Virus record (IMG/VR): IMGVR_UViG_3300025085_000166
Coordinates: 1 to 25,601 of that record
Reading direction: 5' to 3' (one strand)
DNA from: a virus
Length of the DNA: 25,601 nucleotides
Below the pieces are notes generated by a model, which was not told the origin of the DNA, did not search any database, and saw only the letters and a program-made list of their open reading frames with translations. The translations under genes and the position numbers were made by a program. Positions 1,871 through 24,859 of the stretch are shown piece by piece. How positions within the stretch are numbered: position 1 is the first letter of the stretch; each line of letters opens with the position of its first letter.

Positions 1871-3691
1871 ATGGCAAAACAAAATATGACAGTGTATCAA
1901 AGGTTAACAAAGGTTTTCGGTTTTACCGCCGACCAACCTTCTACGCCACCACAATACAAATTTGATAGAGACCAACTGTTAAAAACAGATAGTAAAGAGG
2001 AATATGAAAAATCACTCTTACAACAACAACAATCTCAATATATTGCAGATAAATGGTCTAAATTAGATCAATCGTTATATAATCAATCAGTTTACTATGA
2101 ACCTAACAGATTGGCGGCATATTACGATTATGAATCTATGGAGTTTACCCCTGAGATATCTGCGGCATTGGACATATATTCAGAAGAATCAACGACACTT
2201 TCTGAAAAGGGAGATATACTTACAATTTATTCAGAATCAAAAAGAGTAAAAAACATACTTACAGATCTTTTTGAGAACATCTTAGATGTGAACACTAACT
2301 TACAAATGTGGTGTAGAGGTTTAGGTAAGTACGGAGATAACTTCGTTTATTTAAAAATAGATCCTGAAAGGGGGGTTGTGGGTTGTCAACAATTACCCAA
2401 CATTGAAATCGAGAGACACGAAGGTGCGGCCTCCAATGTACATAAAGCGGAACCGTCATCAAACGTTACAATGCCAAGTAGAGAATTAAGATTTGCATGG
2501 AAGAACAAAGACATGGAATTCCAAGCATGGGAAGTTGCTCATTTCAGACTATTAGGTGATGACAGAAAATTACCTTACGGTACGTCTATGTTAGATAAAG
2601 TAAGACGTATATGGAAACAGTTATTACTTGCGGAAGATGCGATGTTAATATACAGAACATCGAGAGCACCCGAAAGAAGAGTATTTAAAGTCTTTGTTGG
2701 GAATATGGACGATAAAGATATTGAGTCGTATGTACAACGTGTGGCGAACAAATTTAAACGAGATCAAGTAGTAGATCCTCAAAATGGTCAGGTTGATATG
2801 AGATACAATCAAATGGCCGTGGATCAAGATTACTTTATTCCCGTTAGAGACCCAGGTCAAACATCACCTATCGAAACATTACCAGGAGCACAAAACTTAG
2901 GTGAGATTGCAGATATTGAATACATTCAAAAGAAGATGTTAGCGGCACTTAGAATACCTAAGGCCTTTTTAGGTTTTGAGGAAATTGTTGGTGATGGTAA
3001 GACTTTAGCGTTAATGGATATTCGTTTTGCAAGAACGATTAATAGAATACAAAAATCATTAATACAAGAATTAAATAAAATTGCATTAGTTCATTTATAC
3101 TTGTTAGGTTTAGAGGACGAGTTAGATAATTTTACATTGTCTTTAACTAACCCTTCGGCACAATCTGATTTATTAAAAGTAGAACAGTGGAAAGAAAAGA
3201 TAACATTATATAAAGACGCAACATCAGATCAATCTCAAATTGGTATACAACCTGTTTCACACACATGGGCTAAGAAAAATATCTTAGGTATGAGTGATAA
3301 CGACGTAGTATTAGACTTACAACAACAAAGACTTGAACGTGCACTTGGTGGTGAATTAGGTGCTACACCTAATATCATTAAGAGAACAGGTGTGTTTGAT
3401 GAAGTGGATAAAAAGTACGGGATACCTGAAGAGGAAAGACAGTCTATGGACCCTAGTGCGGCCGCTGGTGAAGATGATATGGGTGATATGGGAGGAGCAC
3501 CACCTCCACCCGCAGGAGATATGGGTGGTGAAGAACCTTTAAGTGAAGGAACTAAAAAATCAAAGAAATCTAAAATATTAAGTATGTTAGGTGACGAATC
3601 ACAAGATTTTGATGATCTTTTTGATGTTAATAAGGCACAACAGAATATTTATGAAGTAGAGAATAAACTCAAAGACATATTAAAAGAATAA
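1871..3691 (+). CDS. 20: Portal vertex protein, gp20-like
   Basis: Forms the dodecameric portal ring through which DNA enters and to which the terminase and neck bind. Recognition rests on the N-terminal MEFTPEISAALDIYSEES segment (near residue 93), matching the early portal segment in T4-like phages, and on the block beginning ETLPGAQNLGEIADIEY (about 335-371) continuing into LRIPKAFLGFEE, which corresponds to the conserved T4 gp20 segment with LPGADN. The protein has 606 aa against 524 in T4. The extra length includes a low-complexity Gly/Met/Pro/Asp stretch near 530-560 and a Lys-rich, then acidic helical tail. It is separated from the next gene by only two bases, suggesting co-translation. 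No Shine-Dalgarno sequence precedes the ATG. Confidence 0.94.
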   Translation: MAKQNMTVYQRLTKVFGFTADQPSTPPQYKFDRDQLLKTDSKEEYEKSLLQQQQSQYIADKWSKLDQSLYNQSVYYEPNRLAAYYDYESMEFTPEISAALDIYSEESTTLSEKGDILTIYSESKRVKNILTDLFENILDVNTNLQMWCRGLGKYGDNFVYLKIDPERGVVGCQQLPNIEIERHEGAASNVHKAEPSSNVTMPSRELRFAWKNKDMEFQAWEVAHFRLLGDDRKLPYGTSMLDKVRRIWKQLLLAEDAMLIYRTSRAPERRVFKVFVGNMDDKDIESYVQRVANKFKRDQVVDPQNGQVDMRYNQMAVDQDYFIPVRDPGQTSPIETLPGAQNLGEIADIEYIQKKMLAALRIPKAFLGFEEIVGDGKTLALMDIRFARTINRIQKSLIQELNKIALVHLYLLGLEDELDNFTLSLTNPSAQSDLLKVEQWKEKITLYKDATSDQSQIGIQPVSHTWAKKNILGMSDNDVVLDLQQQRLERALGGELGATPNIIKRTGVFDEVDKKYGIPEEERQSMDPSAAAGEDDMGDMGGAPPPPAGDMGGEEPLSEGTKKSKKSKILSMLGDESQDFDDLFDVNKAQQNIYEVENKLKDILKE

Positions 3692-3693
3692 TT

Positions 3694-4428
3694 ATGGCAA
3701 CATTCGGTAACATTAAAAATAAGATTTTAGTTAAATTAACTGAATCATATGGTAAAAAGGATTTTAAAAATAACCTTAATACATATTTTAAACCTATAAC
3801 TAAAAATGATACTCTCAAAGAGATGTATTCATTATATGAAGAATTAGAGGGTAAAACTTTTGAAGATAAAGAGACTGCGACATTATATGTGGAAGAACTA
3901 TCAAGAATATTAAAAGAAAAAAATTCTAATATACAAATCGATTTAAATAAATTAAGTGAAGACTTATCTAATGTTGAATCTACAAGTAACGAATTATATG
4001 AAAGTATTGATTCTTTGTCTACTCCCGATAATTTAAGTAATATATCTGATAAGGTTATTGCTAAAAAATATTTAGTCGAACATTTAACAAAAAATAAAAC
4101 TAACGAATCACTTACTGTAAATCAAGGTGTAAATGAATCATTATTAAATTCAGTCTTAGTAAACAACTTTAATGTTAGTTTTGATAAGACGTTGAGTGAA
4201 GAAGATAAAAGTAGATTAAAAAATATATTATCTCTTAACCAAGAAGATTTAGAAAGTAAGTTTACTGAATTGACTGAAAGTATCAACGAAAAGTTGGGTT
4301 CAATAGTAGAATCAGACGCGGAATTTAAATCTAAGTCTATTGAGGTTAAGACCGAGATTAATGAAATGAGTCAAAGTAAGTATAACTTATACAGATTAGA
4401 AGAGTTATTAAGTAACTTGTCAGAATAA
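3694..4428 (+). CDS. Unknown 244-aa protein in the gp67/gp68 position, possible prohead core component
   Basis: I do not recognise the family. The product is rich in Lys, Glu, Asn and Ser, has no Cys or Trp, no signal peptide and no membrane segment, and appears mostly alpha-helical. Coiled-coil potential is likely near residues 85-110 and at 185-244. It starts two bases after the portal stop and is followed by a terminator, so it ends the terminase-portal transcription unit. In T4 the genes between portal (20) and protease (21) encode the small prohead core proteins gp67 and gp68, so position suggests a core or scaffold accessory role. That is inference from synteny; no sequence similarity to gp67 or gp68 is claimed. 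Confidence 0.8.
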   Translation: MATFGNIKNKILVKLTESYGKKDFKNNLNTYFKPITKNDTLKEMYSLYEELEGKTFEDKETATLYVEELSRILKEKNSNIQIDLNKLSEDLSNVESTSNELYESIDSLSTPDNLSNISDKVIAKKYLVEHLTKNKTNESLTVNQGVNESLLNSVLVNNFNVSFDKTLSEEDKSRLKNILSLNQEDLESKFTELTESINEKLGSIVESDAEFKSKSIEVKTEINEMSQSKYNLYRLEELLSNLSE

Positions 4429-4459: not shown

Positions 4460-4504
4460 AAATCCCTGTTTTTGATATATCAAAGTCTCAAATAGGGATT
4501 TTTT
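4460..4504 (+). terminator. Rho-independent-type terminator after the portal operon
   Basis: AAATCCCT (4460-4467) pairs with AGGGATTT (4494-4501) and is followed by a T run to 4504. The long loop contains an inner palindrome, TTTGATATATCAAA (4471-4484), so the structure is compound. It stops rightward transcription just before the bS21 gene on the other strand. The T run overlaps the bS21 stop codon. There is no T run in the leftward sense, so it looks one-directional. Confidence 0.7.
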
Positions 4505-4694
4505 AATGCTCGTTTTCGTCGTTCAGTTTCTGTATATACACTGCCTTTTGTTTTTGTAGTCTTTTTTTGACGGATGGTTTGGTGAATTCTTTTTTCTCCC
4601 TGAGTTTATTGATCTGTTTTACGTTTCTTACTTTTTTACGCAATTTCTTTATCGCTTTCTCAATACCACCTTTGTCTACTTTTATTATTAGCAT
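4503..4694 (-). CDS. rpsU: Phage-encoded ribosomal protein bS21
   Basis: This 63-aa very basic protein matches small-subunit ribosomal protein bS21, which binds near the 3' end of 16S rRNA on the 30S platform. The N-terminus MLIIKVDKGGIEKAIKKLRK and the central EFTKPSVKKRLQKQKAVYIQ (36-55) carry the signature of Bacteroidota-type bS21: an F-x-KPSV-x-x-R core followed by QKA-x-YIQ. This differs from the longer Arg-rich Proteobacterial form. In Bacteroidota ribosomes bS21, with bS18 and bS6, holds the anti-Shine-Dalgarno tail, so a phage copy could replace the host protein and change initiation choice. It is the only leftward gene inside the rightward head module and has its own upstream TATTTATTA motif. 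There is no Shine-Dalgarno sequence before its ATG. Effect on host translation is inference. Confidence 0.93.
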   Translation of the reverse strand: MLIIKVDKGGIEKAIKKLRKKVRNVKQINKLREKKEFTKPSVKKRLQKQKAVYIQKLNDENEH

Positions 4695-4710
4695 ATATAA
4701 TTTTGTATAT

Positions 4711-4719
4711 TAATAAATA
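4711..4719 (-). promoter_or_regulatory. Putative late promoter motif TATTTATTA (bS21)
   Basis: On the minus strand TATTTATTA ends 16 bases before the bS21 ATG. It lets this lone leftward gene be expressed with the late genes although it lies against the surrounding operon. Confidence 0.45.
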
Positions 4720-4730
4720 TACTAGAAAAA

Positions 4731-4798: not shown

Positions 4799-5224
4799 AT
4801 GAAACTAGGACGTTACATCCCATTAGGGGATCATAAAAACGTTAAGATTGGATATGGGACGATAAACCATAAAAACTTAAAGACAATTTACCTCTCTTTA
4901 AACTCTTGGTTAGAACCAAATGAGATATGTGAGGATTACGATGCAATACTAAGGTCATCGAAAAATAAAATAAAAAGATTAGTTCACAATTTAGGTCACG
5001 GACTTTTTAGAGAAGAATCTATCGTTGATTTGGATGTGAGAACTAAAGGTATAAAAAAAGAAAAGAGATCTTTTATGAATTTAGAAGTTACTCTTTATAC
5101 GTTAAAACAAGTAAACGTCAAGGATAAAGACTTGAAAACAGACATGTATAGTCTACTATGTGAAATCATAGATACTTGTTTAGATAACGAATTATTATAC
5201 AATTTCCACAAAAAGAAAAAATAA
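4799..5224 (+). CDS. Unknown 141-aa protein between portal and protease genes
   Basis: I do not recognise this protein. It is basic, with a compact N-terminal part (Gly/Tyr/Ile-rich, residues 1-35), a conserved-looking HNLGHGLFREESIVDLDVR segment around 63-81 and a helical C-terminus ending in a run of lysines. No membrane or signal segment is visible. It stands as a separate unit: a terminator and the leftward bS21 gene lie upstream, and a late-type motif restarts transcription before the protease gene downstream. A two-codon ORF, ATG AAT TAA (4790-4798), ends exactly where the ATG begins, which could couple initiation. A prohead core role is possible from position but has no sequence support. 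Confidence 0.75.
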   Translation: MKLGRYIPLGDHKNVKIGYGTINHKNLKTIYLSLNSWLEPNEICEDYDAILRSSKNKIKRLVHNLGHGLFREESIVDLDVRTKGIKKEKRSFMNLEVTLYTLKQVNVKDKDLKTDMYSLLCEIIDTCLDNELLYNFHKKKK

Positions 5225-5265: not shown

Positions 5266-5949
5266 ATGAAAGTATTAGGACCAAAAGAAACAGGTAAAGG
5301 AATATTAATAGAATATGACGCGGGATTTATTTCTCCCAAAGAGAATAAAAGTGTTATATCGGAAATGAAGGGAATTGATTTCTCTGAGGATATTATCCTT
5401 TACGCTGTTCTACAGAAATATGATACCCCGAATAAGAACGGGAGAATCTACCCAGAGAGATTACTCAAGAGAGAGATGGAAAAGTATCAAGAGATAATTG
5501 ATAAAGGTTCAGCATTAAATGAATTAAATCATCCATCATCTTCACTCATAGATTTAGATAGAGTTTCACATACGATCACCGAGACTTGGTGGGACGGTAA
5601 AATTCTTATGGGAAAAATTAAATTACTTCTTTCACCTGGTTGGAAAAAATCAGGTATTGTAAGTACCAAAGGTGACCAAGCGGCAATGTTATTAATGAAC
5701 GGTGTTACCTTAGGTATATCATCAAGAGGGGTGGGATCACTTAAATCAGTTAAAGGACAGAATATAGTACAGGAAGACTTTGAATTGGTTTGTTTTGATT
5801 TAGTATCATCCCCATCAACACCTGGCGCATATGTATTTCAAGATCCAGGAGATAGAGAAAAATACGAAGAATCGATTGAGGAACAACCTATAGTAGATGA
5901 GAGAATGAGTAAACTTATGGGTAATCTCAATAGTTTCTTGTCTAAATAA
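5266..5949 (+). CDS. 21: Prohead core protease, gp21-like
   Basis: Serine protease assembled inside the prohead that cleaves scaffold, capsid and internal proteins after (L/I)xE sites, then destroys itself. The sequence has NKNGRIYPERLL (57-67), ELNHP with candidate catalytic His89, an ETWWDGKILMGKIKLL strand region (106-121) and the GISSRGVGSL nucleophile motif at 150-159 with Ser152/153. All match the T4 gp21/S77-type prohead protease pattern. Length is 227 aa against 212 in T4. It lies directly upstream of the scaffold and capsid genes, as in T4. The N-terminal region before residue 40 is poorly conserved. Confidence 0.94.
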   Translation: MKVLGPKETGKGILIEYDAGFISPKENKSVISEMKGIDFSEDIILYAVLQKYDTPNKNGRIYPERLLKREMEKYQEIIDKGSALNELNHPSSSLIDLDRVSHTITETWWDGKILMGKIKLLLSPGWKKSGIVSTKGDQAAMLLMNGVTLGISSRGVGSLKSVKGQNIVQEDFELVCFDLVSSPSTPGAYVFQDPGDREKYEESIEEQPIVDERMSKLMGNLNSFLSK

Positions 5950-5990: not shown

Positions 5991-6003
5991 CTTAATTAAC
6001 AAG

Positions 6004-6012
6004 TATTTATTA
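6004..6012 (+). promoter_or_regulatory. Putative late promoter motif TATTTATTA (scaffold)
   Basis: TATTTATTA ends 18 bases before the scaffold ATG. The capsid gene downstream has no copy in its 36-base leader, so this element may drive scaffold and capsid together. Confidence 0.45.
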
Positions 6013-6030
6013 TTAAACTATATAAAACAA

Positions 6031-7344
6031 ATGAGTAAAAAATCCATTTTAGAACAAGCATTGCTTCAAGTACAAGACCTTGAAGAGGCAGTAAAGGCAA
6101 ACGCAAAAGGTATACTTGCTTCAACCATGAAGGAAGAACTAAACGATGTCCTAAACGAATCTATGGAACAAGAGGAAGTTGAAGAAATTGAAACTCCTAA
6201 TAAAGAAGACGAACAAGATATGCCAATCTCAGAACAAGGAATTGAAGACGAGGAAGGAAATGATGACGAAACTTCGATAAACGACGAGCCAGCAGACGAC
6301 GTTGATCCAGACATGGAAGATGAAGAGGGTGAAGACGAATCAGACGACGAATTATCTATAGATGATGAGGACGAAGATTTTTCATTACCAATGGATTCTG
6401 AAGAAGAAGGTGAAGATGAAGTCCTTGACATGACCGACGCATCTGACGATGAAGTTTTAAAGGTATTCAAATCAATGAAACCTGAAGACGGAATTGTTGT
6501 GAAACGTGACGGTGATAATGTTGAACTCGAAGATGGAGACGACGAATACATCATCAAATTAGATGACGAAGAAAGTGAAGTCGAAGAAACAGAATACAAC
6601 GAAGAGGTATCTGAAGAAGAAGTAGAGGAATCAGAAGTATCTGAGACCGATATGGAAGAAGAGGTATCTGAAGAAGAAGTATCTGAAACTGACGACACTG
6701 TCTACGAAATTGAGTTAGAAGACGTATCCGAAGAAGAAGTTTCCGAAGAAGAAGTTTCCGAAGAAGAGGTATCTGAAGAAGAAATTGACGAATCAGAAGT
6801 ATCTGAGGAAGAAATGGAAGAAGAAGTCTCTGAAGAGGAAGAATCTCATGAAGAGGAAGTCGACGAAGCTGCAAGAACAAAATCCAATGTACATGGTGAC
6901 AAAGGAGGTGCTAACAGAGCCGGTATTAAGTCTAAGACTAAATATAAGGCAGGTGCAATCAACGAAGAAGTTGAAACTTTAAGAAAACAAAACGGTGAAT
7001 ATAAAAAGGCGTTAGTTTTATTTAAAGAGAAACTAAACGAGGTTGCTGTGTTTAACGCTAACTTGGCATACGCTACAAGATTGTTCACAGAACATTCGAC
7101 AACTCGTCAAGAGAAATTAAATATTTTGAAAAGATTTGACTCTGTCAGTTCTTTAACAGAATCTAAATCCACTTATAAAGTAATAGAAGGTGAATTAGGT
7201 TCAAAACAAAATGTTACTGAGTCGGTTGCCAAAGCAATCGTTTCAACTCCGACATCATCCTCATCTCAAGAGGTACTTTCAGAAACAAAGGCATATGAAA
7301 GTCCTCAGTTCAAGAGAATGAAAGATTTAATGTCAAAATTATAA
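6031..7344 (+). CDS. 22: Prohead scaffolding core protein, gp22-like
   Basis: Major internal scaffold around which the capsid shell forms, later degraded by the prohead protease. Four regions are visible. Residues 1-45 form a helical N-terminus. Residues about 47-280 are extremely acidic and include a small more ordered segment (about 136-181, SDDEVLKVFKSMKPEDGIVV) and a SEEEV repeat tract. Residues 280-310 are basic (from AARTKSNVHGDKGGANRAG). Residues 310-437 hold a coiled coil with LNEVAVFNANLAYATRLF and a C-terminus ending FKRMKDLMSKL. The pattern of coiled coil followed by NLAYATRLF-type text is typical of scaffold proteins of marine T4-like phages. T4 gp22 is 269 aa; the extra length is the acidic tract. 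VDE279|A280 is a plausible protease site at the acidic-basic boundary. It lies directly before the capsid gene, as in T4. Confidence 0.87.
   Translation: MSKKSILEQALLQVQDLEEAVKANAKGILASTMKEELNDVLNESMEQEEVEEIETPNKEDEQDMPISEQGIEDEEGNDDETSINDEPADDVDPDMEDEEGEDESDDELSIDDEDEDFSLPMDSEEEGEDEVLDMTDASDDEVLKVFKSMKPEDGIVVKRDGDNVELEDGDDEYIIKLDDEESEVEETEYNEEVSEEEVEESEVSETDMEEEVSEEEVSETDDTVYEIELEDVSEEEVSEEEVSEEEVSEEEIDESEVSEEEMEEEVSEEEESHEEEVDEAARTKSNVHGDKGGANRAGIKSKTKYKAGAINEEVETLRKQNGEYKKALVLFKEKLNEVAVFNANLAYATRLFTEHSTTRQEKLNILKRFDSVSSLTESKSTYKVIEGELGSKQNVTESVAKAIVSTPTSSSSQEVLSETKAYESPQFKRMKDLMSKL
6727..6786 (+). repeat. Tandem 15-base repeat encoding SEEEV in the scaffold gene
   Basis: Four consecutive 15-base units (TCCGAAGAAGAAGTT and close variants) encode SEEE(V/I) four times at scaffold residues 233-252. 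Degenerate copies of the same unit extend through about 6604-6855. Such a tract can change length by slippage while staying in frame. Confidence 0.85.
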
Positions 7345-7380: not shown

Positions 7381-9105
7381 ATGGGAGCATTATTAGAATC
7401 AGGTATGGTTGGTAACATCGGGTTAAAACACCTAAGAGTTATCAAAGAAGATACCATCAAAAAATGGGATGACCTAGGTTTCTTAGAGGGACTTAATGGA
7501 CATCAAAAAGATAACATCGCTCAGTTATATGAAAACCAAGCGTCTTATCTAATTAACGAAGCTGCTGTGTCTGACTCATCAGGTTCATTCGAAACAGTTG
7601 TTTTTCCAATTATTAGAAGAGTATTCTCTAAATTATTGGCAAACGATATCGTTTCTGTACAAGCTATGAACTTACCAATTGGTAAATTGTTCTACTTTGT
7701 ACCTAAAATCGGCGAAAGAGATGCGAACGGTAATCACAAGAAACCTTATGGTGTACCAAACGGAGATACTGACGTAGCAAACGGAGACTTTGACGGTGGA
7801 AGAAATCTTTATGATAGATTCTACGAAGAAGGTGACGGAGCTGAAGAAGGTCTATTTGACTACTCTAAAGGTAAATACACTACCGAAGCACTTTCTGGTC
7901 TTACAATCGTAACATTCGAAAACGGAGCGGCTACTGAAACTGCAACACTTGCATCAGGAGCAACATCATCTGTAATCGTTAAGTTAAAAGGTTTTAACAA
8001 ATTAGGATCAGGTAAAATTTCAGGACCTAATGGTAATGAAATGGATACTGAAGAATTTTTAGCATCTTTAGAATTATCTCACTCTGGTATCAACGGAGGA
8101 GCTAAATTACCTTTTAACGTTGTAACTCAAAAATACGGAAACGGAATCGTTGAGTACGGTGTAAAAGGAGATGGTTTAACAGGAGAATATCCTGATATCG
8201 TAGATAAAGATGGTGTCATCTTCTTAAACGTTGACCTTGAAACGTACACTGCATCGGCAGGTTTCGCAGCGTATGACGCGGCAGGAACTGAAGCGGCAAC
8301 TGATTTCGCGGCAAGTTACAGACAGTATGGTTCACTTGAATTCGAAGATGAAATCGGAGAAGTATCTTTCGATTTAGATTCTGTAACAGTTTCTGTTACT
8401 GAAAGAAAGTTAAGAGCTAGCTGGTCTCCTGAATTGGCTCAGGATGTATCTGCTTTCCATAACATCGACGCTGAGGCTGAGTTAACTGCATTGTTATCTG
8501 AGCAAATCGCGGCTGAGGTTGATAGAGAGATCTTAAGAGACTTAAGAAAAGGTGCAGCTTGGAACCTTAAATGGGACTACAATGAGTGGAAATACGGTGG
8601 AGACAATAACAAAACTCTACAGGGTTATACTCAAAAGGATTGGAACCAAACGTTAATTACTAAAATTAACCAATTATCGGCTCAAATCCATAAAACTACA
8701 CTTAGAGGTGGTGCTAACTGGATCGTTGTTTCTTCTGAAGTTTCAGCTGTATTCGATGACTTAGAGTACTTCCACGTATCTAACGCAGGTGCTGAACAAG
8801 ACCAATACAATATGGGTATTGAGAAAGTTGGTACTTTAGCAGGAAGATACCAAGTGTATAGAGATCCTTACTTCCCAGCGGGTAAAGTATTGGTTGGACA
8901 TAAAGGAAAGTCGTTGTTAGACGCAGGGTACATTTACGCACCTTACGTACCGTTACAACTTACACCTACAATGTACAATCCATTCAACTTTACACCGATC
9001 AAGGGTATCATGACGAGATACGCTAAGAAAATGGTTAATAACCGTTACTTCGGTGTAATAAACGTTGCAGGATTACAAACATTCAACTTAGATTCTTTAA
9101 GATAA
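7381..9105 (+). CDS. 23: Major capsid protein, gp23-like
   Basis: Forms the hexamers of the head shell (HK97 fold). Matches to T4 gp23 include the segment starting VVFPIIRRVFSKLLANDIVS near residue 73 and the block starting VSFDLDSVTVSVTERKLRAS at 328, which continues into SPELAQDVSAFHNIDAEAEL. The C-terminal MYNPFNFTPIKGIMTRYAKK segment also matches. A prohead protease site is likely at LINE60|A61, removing a 60-residue N-terminal part, close to the 65 residues lost in T4. Length is 574 aa against 521 in T4. Residues of about 170-325 form a Gly/Ala/Thr-rich region that is poorly conserved and may be a surface insertion. Codon use here is richer in C-ending codons than in neighbouring genes, as expected for a highly expressed gene. 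A strong terminator follows. Confidence 0.96.
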   Translation: MGALLESGMVGNIGLKHLRVIKEDTIKKWDDLGFLEGLNGHQKDNIAQLYENQASYLINEAAVSDSSGSFETVVFPIIRRVFSKLLANDIVSVQAMNLPIGKLFYFVPKIGERDANGNHKKPYGVPNGDTDVANGDFDGGRNLYDRFYEEGDGAEEGLFDYSKGKYTTEALSGLTIVTFENGAATETATLASGATSSVIVKLKGFNKLGSGKISGPNGNEMDTEEFLASLELSHSGINGGAKLPFNVVTQKYGNGIVEYGVKGDGLTGEYPDIVDKDGVIFLNVDLETYTASAGFAAYDAAGTEAATDFAASYRQYGSLEFEDEIGEVSFDLDSVTVSVTERKLRASWSPELAQDVSAFHNIDAEAELTALLSEQIAAEVDREILRDLRKGAAWNLKWDYNEWKYGGDNNKTLQGYTQKDWNQTLITKINQLSAQIHKTTLRGGANWIVVSSEVSAVFDDLEYFHVSNAGAEQDQYNMGIEKVGTLAGRYQVYRDPYFPAGKVLVGHKGKSLLDAGYIYAPYVPLQLTPTMYNPFNFTPIKGIMTRYAKKMVNNRYFGVINVAGLQTFNLDSLR

Positions 9106-18011: not shown

Positions 18012-18713
18012 CTAGTAATTTATAAAATCTAACTTCAACACCTCATAGAGTTTTTTAAACTTTTTCATAGCAACTCTAATTTCTTTGGTGGATAGTGAGG
18101 TCATTTCACGTAGGGATAATAGTATTAAGTTCTTATTAAACTTATTTCCTTCACCCACTTGAAATATCTTTTCAAAATTGGTAAAAACCTCGACCAACGC
18201 GTAACCTAATTTCTGCTCGTTCTCGTTAAGGTTTTCTTCTTCGACAAATTTTTCTAACTCAACCGTAAGTTTATTTACGACATCCTTATAATCAATTATT
18301 TCTTCGTCTATAATATAAGAAAGGTCCGCCCTATCTTCAATCCGTGAGGATATGTCTTCATAGGAAACGGACCTGTTCATTAGTTTTTGGTCCTTCTGTA
18401 TAGTACCCATTAGGTAATTCTTACAGATGGTACCGAAATAGGAGTATGCCTTATAATTCTTAGTAGTATCAAACTTACTAATCTTCGTCATTAGAAATGA
18501 CAAAGTATCAGTATGTATCTGTTCAAAATTATAATCTTTCCTATAAAGTTTGTAACGGCGAATTATACTTTCCACCATTATTTTGAGAGGTTCTCTTAAA
18601 TATTCATTAAATATCTTATTCTTTTCGTCTTCGTTTTCTGATTCTAAAAATCTTACTACCGCTTGTTCTTGCTCCTCCCCAAAGTACATTTTTTGGGTTC
18701 TTTTTCTGGGCAT
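18012..18713 (-). CDS. 55: Probable late sigma factor, gp55-like
   Basis: Likely RNA polymerase sigma factor for late genes. Residues 37-110 fit sigma region 2: an IIRRYKLYRKD helix (50-60), then FEQIHTDTLSFLMTKISKFD (63-82) and KAYSYFGTICKNYLMGTIQK (88-107), the polymerase-binding and -10-reading part kept in T4 gp55. The C-terminus (near 195-233) has LREMTSLSTKEIRVAMKKFK, a helix-turn-helix-like segment. At 233 aa it is somewhat longer than T4 gp55 (185 aa). Its ATG shares one base with the stop of the glycosyltransferase upstream (TAATG). The window's recurring TATTTATA motif is the natural candidate for its target. Confidence is good for sigma-like, moderate for the exact gp55 role. Confidence 0.78.
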   Translation of the reverse strand: MPRKRTQKMYFGEEQEQAVVRFLESENEDEKNKIFNEYLREPLKIMVESIIRRYKLYRKDYNFEQIHTDTLSFLMTKISKFDTTKNYKAYSYFGTICKNYLMGTIQKDQKLMNRSVSYEDISSRIEDRADLSYIIDEEIIDYKDVVNKLTVELEKFVEEENLNENEQKLGYALVEVFTNFEKIFQVGEGNKFNKNLILLSLREMTSLSTKEIRVAMKKFKKLYEVLKLDFINY

Positions 18714-19498
18714 TAATTGTCTTTATATTCTACTTCTCGTTTATTCTTGAAGAAAAATTCTTTTTTAGCAGTCTCTAACCAAAACTTCGCCTCACCACCT
18801 TCTAACTTGTGATCCTCCGAATTTTTATATGACCAAAATAATGAGTCTTCTCTAAAGTTTACATGTCTATATCCTATTTGTGGGATAGTGGCCACTTTAG
18901 CTCCGTTATGTGTTAATCTCAATAAAAACTCATAACTAAATGTGAGTTTAATATTATCTTTAAATGAACCACTTTCTTTAACAACTTCTGTTTTATAAAA
19001 ACCACCACTTGTTTGGTAGTTTTGATAGTCTAAAAGTATTTCATTACTAAGTTCTCCTTGGTTTTCACTAAAACCATACGCCCAAACAGATTCATTTGTA
19101 AAATTCAGAAGTTTACCTTCAGAATTAACGTCTTTCACTATTGGTAGTAGAATATCAGCGTCGGGGAAAAGAGTGTGGTACGTTCTAAATGAATTAATCC
19201 AATTAGGTGTGTATTCGTCATCTATTTCTAATATTGAGAACCATTCGGTCTCACAATTATCAATCCCTAAGTTCACTTGGGAACAAAATCCCGTATCTCC
19301 GTCATTAATAATAATATTAACATCCAACTTATCTGATATACTGTCTCTTTTTAAGTCCCCTAAAACATTTTTGGGTCCCACAAGTAATAAAGATACATCA
19401 TCATGAAATTGTTCTACAGAAAGTATTGCTCTTGAAAACATTTCATTGTATTCACCTTTTAAATCGTGAATGGGTAAAATTACTGTTATATTTTTCAT
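18713..19498 (-). CDS. GT2-like glycosyltransferase
   Basis: GT-A fold sugar transferase. Opening VILPIHDLKGEYNEMFSRAI (6-25) is the usual nucleotide-binding start with repeated beta-alpha units, NDGDTGFCSQVNLGID (65-80) matches the GT2 donor region, and ILEIDDEYTPNWINSF (89-104) holds the acidic metal motif (Asp93/Asp94 in place of DxD). Length of 261 aa suits a soluble single-domain enzyme; no membrane segment is present. Its ATG overlaps the stop of the GT-B gene upstream by four bases (ATGA), and its stop overlaps the sigma factor ATG, so the three are translated as a set. Substrate is unknown: DNA base, capsid or host-surface glycan are all possible. Confidence 0.85.
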   Translation of the reverse strand: MKNITVILPIHDLKGEYNEMFSRAILSVEQFHDDVSLLLVGPKNVLGDLKRDSISDKLDVNIIINDGDTGFCSQVNLGIDNCETEWFSILEIDDEYTPNWINSFRTYHTLFPDADILLPIVKDVNSEGKLLNFTNESVWAYGFSENQGELSNEILLDYQNYQTSGGFYKTEVVKESGSFKDNIKLTFSYEFLLRLTHNGAKVATIPQIGYRHVNFREDSLFWSYKNSEDHKLEGGEAKFWLETAKKEFFFKNKREVEYKDN

Positions 19499-23626: not shown

Positions 23627-24859
23627 TTACTTTTTTATAATTGATTTTAAAAATTCCACTCTATCCTTAGAAACAGTGGCGAGTGAATATTTATCCTTTA
23701 CTGTTTCATATAGTTTATTACCTAAGTCTTCTATCATATTAGGGTTTTCTATTAACTTCTTCATATGTTTACCCCACTGTTTATGATTTTTGTTTGTTGA
23801 CACTAATAAAGAATTACCTTTAGGGTTAATTCCACCACCACGTTCAACTGAGGACACTAAATCAATAAGATAGGGATCTTCTTCTGTTGCGATGATTGCC
23901 TTCTTATGAAATCCCGCCTCAATTACCTTTAGTTGAGATTTATTAGCGTTAAATTCGGATTTAACCAACGGAGCTAAGGACACATCAAAATAGTTGTAAT
24001 TGGAAGCGTACTTGTTTATATCCATGGTCCATCTACGAACATAGGGTTGGTTTAATTCATCAGGAAATTCTGTTTGTGTAAATGTGTGTAAATGATTTTT
24101 ATAATCTTGAGAAACTGATCTATAATCATTAGTGAAAATATTTTCATATTTAAACCACACGGTTTCCATAGGTTTGATAGGTCTTTCTGACATCTGACCT
24201 GTTTGTCTATTAATCATTTTCATATTCCCTCTCAAATCGAAACCACATAAAACAAATTGTGTTTTACCTTTGTATTGTTGAGTTATTGTTGAAATACCAC
24301 TTTTAATTAATTCTAAGTCGTGTAAGTGGGACGACCCCCCTAACCAACCAAATCTAACTAAATCAGAATCTTTTGGTTTTGGTTTGAATTGAGGTTCTTT
24401 TTCGTTGACCGCATTTGGAAATACTGAAACATTCTTTATTCCTAATAAAGATTTAATTGTTTTTTGATAAATAGGTGTAGTGGTTGTTACATAGTCGGCA
24501 CTTTTAAGTAACTCTGCACGTAATTTACTATACCCATTTCTTTTAAATGTTTCGTAGTTTGGGTGTCTGTGATCTACTCTCCAAAAATCGTCAATATCCA
24601 TAACGACCTTAATCCCCTCTTTTTTTAACCAATTGATTCGGTCTAAATTTAATTGAGATTCTCCTTTGTGTATGAATGAGTGAAAGTATACAATGTCGTA
24701 ATTATCGAAAAATTTATTTTCGTTAGGTACGTCGAATACGAGATCAACATGTACTTCATCTGAATGGTTATCACCAATGTAAGTAAATGGATCTATGATT
24801 CTATATTTCCCAACACCGTGACTATCAGACGGGATTGCGAGTACTCTAACTTTTGACAT
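23627..24859 (-). CDS. GT-B type glycosyltransferase (410 aa)
   Basis: GT4-like enzyme of 410 aa. N-terminal part (1-160): VRVLAIPSDSHGVGKYRIID (4-23) with the Gly-rich acceptor loop, YDIVYFHSFIHKGES (54-68), VVMDIDDFWRVD (85-96). C-terminal donor part (165-410): VRFGWLGGSSHLHDLELI (168-185), FVLCGFDLRGN (202-212), NKSQLKVIEAGFHKKAIIAT (306-325), which includes the acidic residue (Glu314) of the donor site. No transmembrane segment. It is the largest of three glycosyltransferases in the leftward arm. A Bacteroidota-type promoter candidate precedes it. Possible roles are DNA base glycosylation, virion glycosylation or host-surface changes; the sequence does not tell which. Confidence 0.88.
   Translation of the reverse strand: MSKVRVLAIPSDSHGVGKYRIIDPFTYIGDNHSDEVHVDLVFDVPNENKFFDNYDIVYFHSFIHKGESQLNLDRINWLKKEGIKVVMDIDDFWRVDHRHPNYETFKRNGYSKLRAELLKSADYVTTTTPIYQKTIKSLLGIKNVSVFPNAVNEKEPQFKPKPKDSDLVRFGWLGGSSHLHDLELIKSGISTITQQYKGKTQFVLCGFDLRGNMKMINRQTGQMSERPIKPMETVWFKYENIFTNDYRSVSQDYKNHLHTFTQTEFPDELNQPYVRRWTMDINKYASNYNYFDVSLAPLVKSEFNANKSQLKVIEAGFHKKAIIATEEDPYLIDLVSSVERGGGINPKGNSLLVSTNKNHKQWGKHMKKLIENPNMIEDLGNKLYETVKDKYSLATVSKDRVEFLKSIIKK

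Follow-up and report, generated by a model that had tools for sequence, protein, structure and literature searches.

The reverse-strand gene at 4503..4694 of the window, the whole 25.6-kb record (25,601 nucleotides) analysed here and a fragment of the head module of a T4-like phage, encodes a genuine ribosomal protein bS21 of the Bacteroidota type. The gene is under purifying selection, its product preserves the tyrosine equivalent to Tyr54 of Flavobacterium johnsoniae bS21, and its leader carries a late-promoter-like motif and no Shine-Dalgarno (SD) sequence. On balance, we consider it probable that the phage protein replaces the host bS21 late in infection and keeps the ribosomes SD-blind; it would also be predicted to silence the host bS21 gene, rpsU, in trans.

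The sequence provides stronger evidence for the assignment than the fold. The 63-residue product, starting at an ATG, matches the Pfam family Ribosomal_S21 (PF01165; E 2.8e-9, 37 bits against a cut-off of 27), and its closest sequence in the PDB is the bS21 of entry 7jil, from F. johnsoniae (E 3.1e-9), in agreement with the Bacteroidota-type identity proposed in the earlier note. The predicted AlphaFold model (pLDDT 87, pTM 0.46) comprises two helices, residues 10-35 and 40-62, and all 14 PDB chains aligned with it belong to bacterial, mitochondrial or chloroplast ribosomes; the Z score of the best alignment (Z 5.5, rmsd 5.9 over 62 residues) and the pTM are both modest. A PHROGs search with the protein at E 0.01 returned no family. 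A chance open reading frame at 4503-4694 is ruled out by the family match, the synteny and the dN/dS values described below; on the plus strand, frame 1 over the same bases reaches a stop after 18 codons.

The surrounding head module, read on the plus strand, includes (i) the large terminase subunit TerL (35-1810); (ii) the T4-like portal protein gp20 (1871..3691; PF07230, E 1.6e-78); (iii) a gene for a 244-residue protein (3694..4428), the constant portal-side neighbour of bS21; (iv) a gene for a 141-residue protein (4799..5224), the constant protease-side neighbour, divergent from bS21; (v) the S77 prohead protease (5266..5949; PF03420, E 3.1e-24); and (vi) the gp23-type capsid protein (7381-9105). 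The location between portal and protease genes on the opposite strand, claimed in the earlier note, therefore holds, with one uncharacterised gene on each side. A scaffold-like protein of 437 residues, rich in acidic SEEEV repeats, is encoded at 6031-7344; a serine-rich ORF of 210 residues, antisense to this gene, looks spurious.

This arrangement is preserved among the relatives of the phage. A scan of IMG/VR with the bS21 protein disclosed 39 loci having a relative, 38 of which display one or more of the head-module genes of the window beside bS21; two further scans, with the portal protein and with the 141-residue neighbour, contributed the best 80 loci each, on partly shared contigs. Across all scanned loci, 92 distinct portal-to-protease intervals were readable, near-identical intervals being counted apart, and bS21 lies between both neighbour genes on the opposite strand in 84 of them and on the same strand in none; since the sample consists of close relatives, this fraction is uninformative on T4-like phages at large. 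No bS21 was found in the other eight intervals (L329, L334, L343, L345, L367, L372, L399 and L401), where the two neighbour genes are separated by 80-133 nt, compared to 281-559 nt in five loci with bS21. These eight relatives constitute a natural comparison set, and all of them retain both neighbour genes, so that no dependence of either gene on bS21 is seen. The remaining locus of the 39, L029, has none of the head-module genes beside bS21; its bS21 gene, a member of the same clade (6001-6198), shares its strand with the adjacent genes, and PhoH-like and RNase HII-like genes, both named from reading their translations, lie nearby. Among phage bS21 gene pairs of equal length, with an identity of at least 75% and dS between 0.1 and 1.5, the median dN/dS is 0.13, and none of the 380 pairs reaches 1, as expected under purifying selection. 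Annotated phage records rarely contain a relative: at E 0.01, six of 50,697 do, none of these relatives reaching 60% identity and each record bearing the label of an uncultured phage or Bacteriophage sp.

The 141-residue neighbour, modelled with a pLDDT of 87.5, matches neither a Pfam nor a PHROGs family at E 0.01; against the PDB, a profile search gave a best E of 0.085, and Foldseek returned no match below E 0.001. Its model shows one close structural match to a viral protein (A0A8S5L9A5), whose function is likewise uncharacterised, and a second comparison gave Z values below 8.

The placement against the head operon, presented in the earlier note as the point of interest, is not new, being central to the work of Chen et al. 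2022 (PMC9723584) on five clades of Bacteroidetes phages in which bS21 is encoded on the reverse strand within the TerL-portal-protease-capsid region. These authors assigned the phages to Bacteroidetes hosts on the basis of CRISPR or of gene content, and reported that bS21 and the capsid genes are highly transcribed together, late; that the aromatic residue 54 is conserved; and that the protein diverges significantly at Arg21, Phe23, Asp25 and Thr28, the altered helix being located where mRNA would bind. They proposed that the phage protein replaces the host bS21 and confers a preference for phage transcripts, and raised its packaging into the virion. The window bS21 shares with those phages the reverse strand, two conserved flanking genes, the aromatic residue 54 and the divergence in the first helix, and is a further member of the same kind; the complete genomes published are those of large myoviruses and measure 293-331 kb, whereas the window is a 25.6-kb fragment. 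Chen et al. also described a neighbour gene, which may correspond to either of the two neighbours here, missing from two outgroups devoid of bS21. The words 'promoter', 'sigma' and 'paralog' do not occur in the main text of that paper, and no analysis of the leaders or SD sequences of phage genes was found in the portions examined. In a limited open-licence search covering titles and the openings of abstracts, nothing was found on a second or alternative Bacteroidota bS21 associated with a sigma factor, on Bacteroidota bS21 paralogs, or on phage bS21 with late promoters; within that search, the SD-less phage leaders, the TATTTAT motif and the likeness of a protein segment to a second chromosomal bS21, described below, appear to be new.

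The expression signals around the gene are consistent with an independent reverse-strand transcript. The sequence TATTTATT (4712..4719, minus strand) lies 25 nt 5' of the bS21 ATG, surrounded by an AT-rich inverted repeat (4705..4722) in a leader with no SD; the leader folds into a modest hairpin that could hinder initiation. The motif is recurrent. TATTTATW occurs in eight of the 30 window gene leaders picked, versus 1.3 expected and one antisense occurrence (p = 0.0005), and, of the 72 distinct leaders of phage bS21 genes, 34 contain TATTTAT (8.5 expected, one antisense) or, after clustering, 17 of 36 (3.8 expected, one antisense), leaving 19 of the 36 clusters without it. These counts uphold the earlier description of the motif as late-type, and it resembles the T4 late promoter. 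A possible late sigma factor is encoded at 18012..18713 on the minus strand (phrog_234, weak match, E 0.0039). The bS21 gene and that of the 244-residue protein converge, and their 3' ends are separated by a hairpin with a T run (4460..4507), which is terminator-like on the plus strand (-18.8 kcal/mol, z -3.8) and less so on the minus strand (-13.6 kcal/mol, z -3.1); a pattern scan for terminators did not list this hairpin, though the folding supports it.

The comparison of translation signals highlights a difference between phage bS21 genes and many housekeeping rpsU genes. The last 25 nt before each start were paired with the standard 16S tail, with a threshold of -8 kcal/mol. None of the 26 window leaders pairs more strongly than the threshold, confirming that the genes of this phage lack SD sites, as the earlier note had stated; the bS21 leader itself gives +1.7 kcal/mol, without an extended SD, and none of the 72 distinct phage bS21 leaders falls below the threshold. 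On the other hand, McNutt et al. 2023 (PMC9976891) reported that F. johnsoniae rpsU is autoregulated via an extended SD read by bS21-less ribosomes, which translate this gene more strongly; they suggested the loop as a possible counter-defence against phage bS21, mentioned bS21 paralogs in other phyla and described an alternative anti-SD. Among the housekeeping rpsU genes of all our samples except one fetch of 20 Flavobacteriaceae sequences, 36 of 117 fall below -8 kcal/mol. Within the 84 genes read in the Flavobacteriales sample, from which genomes of ~0.6 Mb were left out, 27 show the usual SD and 15 a TGAGAT type fitting the alternative anti-SD. The 20 Flavobacteriaceae sequences, chosen mainly from ranks where housekeeping genes lie, comprise 19 leaders at -17.5 kcal/mol or stronger, the twentieth (L255) being of the second bS21 type. 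The contrast is thus sharp within Flavobacteriaceae and weaker outside; since half of the Flavobacteriales sample has no SD on rpsU, the host loop may be absent in this case. The opposition between an rpsU gene autoregulated through its SD in many Flavobacteriales and an SD-less phage gene was missing from the earlier note, and yields a concrete prediction, namely that phage bS21 would repress the translation of host rpsU and leave its own unaffected.

At the residue level, the protein combines a kept anti-SD contact with a changed first half. In an alignment of 80 phage rows, corresponding to 79 distinct proteins with the window copy counted twice, every row has an aromatic residue at position 54 (77 Y, 2 H, 1 F), and the core residues K40, R46 and A52 are found in 80, 79 and 79 rows, respectively; the housekeeping proteins, 108 distinct ones from class, order and family samples, show Y, F or H at position 54 in 107. 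Loss of the anti-SD contact, named beforehand as a finding that would speak against the proposal, is therefore not seen at this residue in any of the 79 distinct copies. In contrast, all 80 phage rows carry V, I or L at position 23 and K or R at position 27, with Q at position 28 in 76, versus F or Y at position 23 in 103 and G at position 27 in 96 of the housekeeping proteins. Taken together, the counts indicate that the residue holding the anti-SD tail is kept while the first-half segment is changed. Compared to the housekeeping bS21 of F. johnsoniae (7JIL), the window protein preserves the family, the length and Tyr54, which corresponds to its own Tyr53, but it has one residue fewer near position 9, VRNVK replaces FDKTG and the gene has no extended SD.

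A second chromosomal bS21 with RNVK-like residues replacing FDKTG, called B type only in this text, was encountered in some Flavobacteriales genomes. Searching 299 Flavobacteriaceae genomes with five B-type proteins gave a match in 284 at E 1e-19, housekeeping copies included, and in 87 (88 rows) at E 4.0e-30 or better; the B type was confirmed in all 63 rows fetched out of those 88, and further copies below that line are those of L227, L229 and L255. The B-type loci are L163, L164, L165, L166 and L167, L177-L244 minus L228, L230 and L231, and L255. An RpoD-like sigma gene, comprising sigma-70 regions 1.2 to 4, is located upstream on the same strand in 30 of 65 B-type loci, with gaps of 10-221 nt; the remaining 35 show two recurrent gene families, one located upstream and one downstream, each present in 23 loci. 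A search for that sigma factor in five genomes gave three matches in G287, two in G271 and G264, and one in G330, where part of the sequence 5' of the second bS21 is masked, and in G001, which has no second bS21. Only two of 70 B-type leaders, a single gene fetched twice, fall below -8 kcal/mol and none below -12; some other genes are also present twice in this set. G27 is replaced in the B type, by K in 56 of 60 distinct proteins. The window gene thus resembles the B type in its missing extended SD, its replaced G27 and its RNVK segment, and differs in being phage-borne rather than chromosomal. A prophage origin of the B-type genes was rejected, since a comparison of 19 window proteins with five wide B-type neighbourhoods, one of them partly masked, matched bS21 only. 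This SD-less second bS21, frequently adjacent to an RpoD-like sigma gene, would be a tractable example for studying how ribosomes specialise in Bacteroidota. As a separate observation, one genome (G314) carries two divergent bS21-like genes, L149 and L150, with TTG starts and a very long tree branch.

The segment common to the phage and B-type proteins is plain, and their common descent is unproven on the trees built. A 64-column tree joins them with support of 97/80, another with 100/98, its bootstrap not settled, and a tree without long rows with 98/86; the join also appears in a quick search with the housekeeping proteins set apart (SH-aLRT 92). On the other hand, the quick-search tree minus five long rows does not join them, and leaving out residues 22-30 abolishes the join, although forcing it is not rejected (AU p 0.27).

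According to the mechanism we favour, the bS21 gene would have a reverse-strand promoter of the TATTTAT type to itself and be transcribed late, with the transcript ending at the shared hairpin, a putative terminator. Late production is suggested by the motif together with the transcripts of related phages reported by Chen et al. (PMC9723584). The protein would then take the place of host bS21 in the 30S subunits, an expectation based on the proposal of the same authors and on Mizuno et al. 2019 (PMC6375957), who are reported to have found the bS21 of Pelagibacter phage HTVC008M incorporated into E. coli ribosomes; that protein is phage-borne like the window copy and belongs to a phage of a different host group. 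The kept aromatic residue would stack on A1534 and hold the anti-SD tail, so that, as Tyr54 argues, the ribosomes would stay SD-blind, as SD-less phage mRNAs need. Without an SD in its leader, the phage gene would escape the loop controlling rpsU in many Flavobacteriales. Moreover, bS21-less ribosomes are the ones that efficiently translate rpsU with its SD; once they take up the phage protein, synthesis of host bS21 should cease, and we infer from the published loop that this shut-off in trans would lock in the replacement. Counting against this mechanism are the eight intervals of 92 devoid of bS21, the 19 motif-less clusters and the weak match of the late sigma factor.

According to published work, bS21 is the commonest ribosomal protein in phages, and its role there is described as unsettled. 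A wider version of the mechanism, held only tentatively, takes the phage gene as a capture or mimic of the Flavobacteriaceae SD-less bS21, from which the phage form may have arisen: both would escape autoregulation, and the phage form would silence rpsU and convert the ribosome pool. That the altered segment, residues 23-28, instead makes ribosomes prefer phage mRNAs beyond SD-blindness, as in the interpretation of Chen et al. (PMC9723584), seems to us possible and rather unlikely; it would account for V/I/L23, K/R27 and Q28 in the phage rows opposed to F/Y23 and G27 in the housekeeping copies, and for the altered helix those authors place at the mRNA site, but a similar segment in the host paralog implies that the change need not target phage mRNA, and the leader features examined, SD and TATTTAT, include none known to be read by such ribosomes.

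A simple dosage aid, in which a bS21 identical in function to that of the host is topped up during heavy late protein synthesis, fits the late-type motif, the head-module position and the conserved core residues, and nevertheless appears improbable, given that a plain copy would not be expected to depart so consistently at residues 23-28. Least credible, and very improbable, is a virion or assembly protein derived from bS21: selection on the core residues and Tyr54, and the relative in L029, which sits close to a PhoH-like gene and apart from any head genes, speak against a non-ribosomal function, to which the head-module location seen in 84 of this lineage's 92 intervals and the packaging raised by Chen et al. 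(PMC9723584) would otherwise lend weight.

Elsewhere in the window, glycosyltransferase-like genes are located on the minus strand at 18713-19498 and 23627-24859, with matches below the Pfam cut-off, and a protein of 327 residues encoded at 10399-11382 matches DUF5872.
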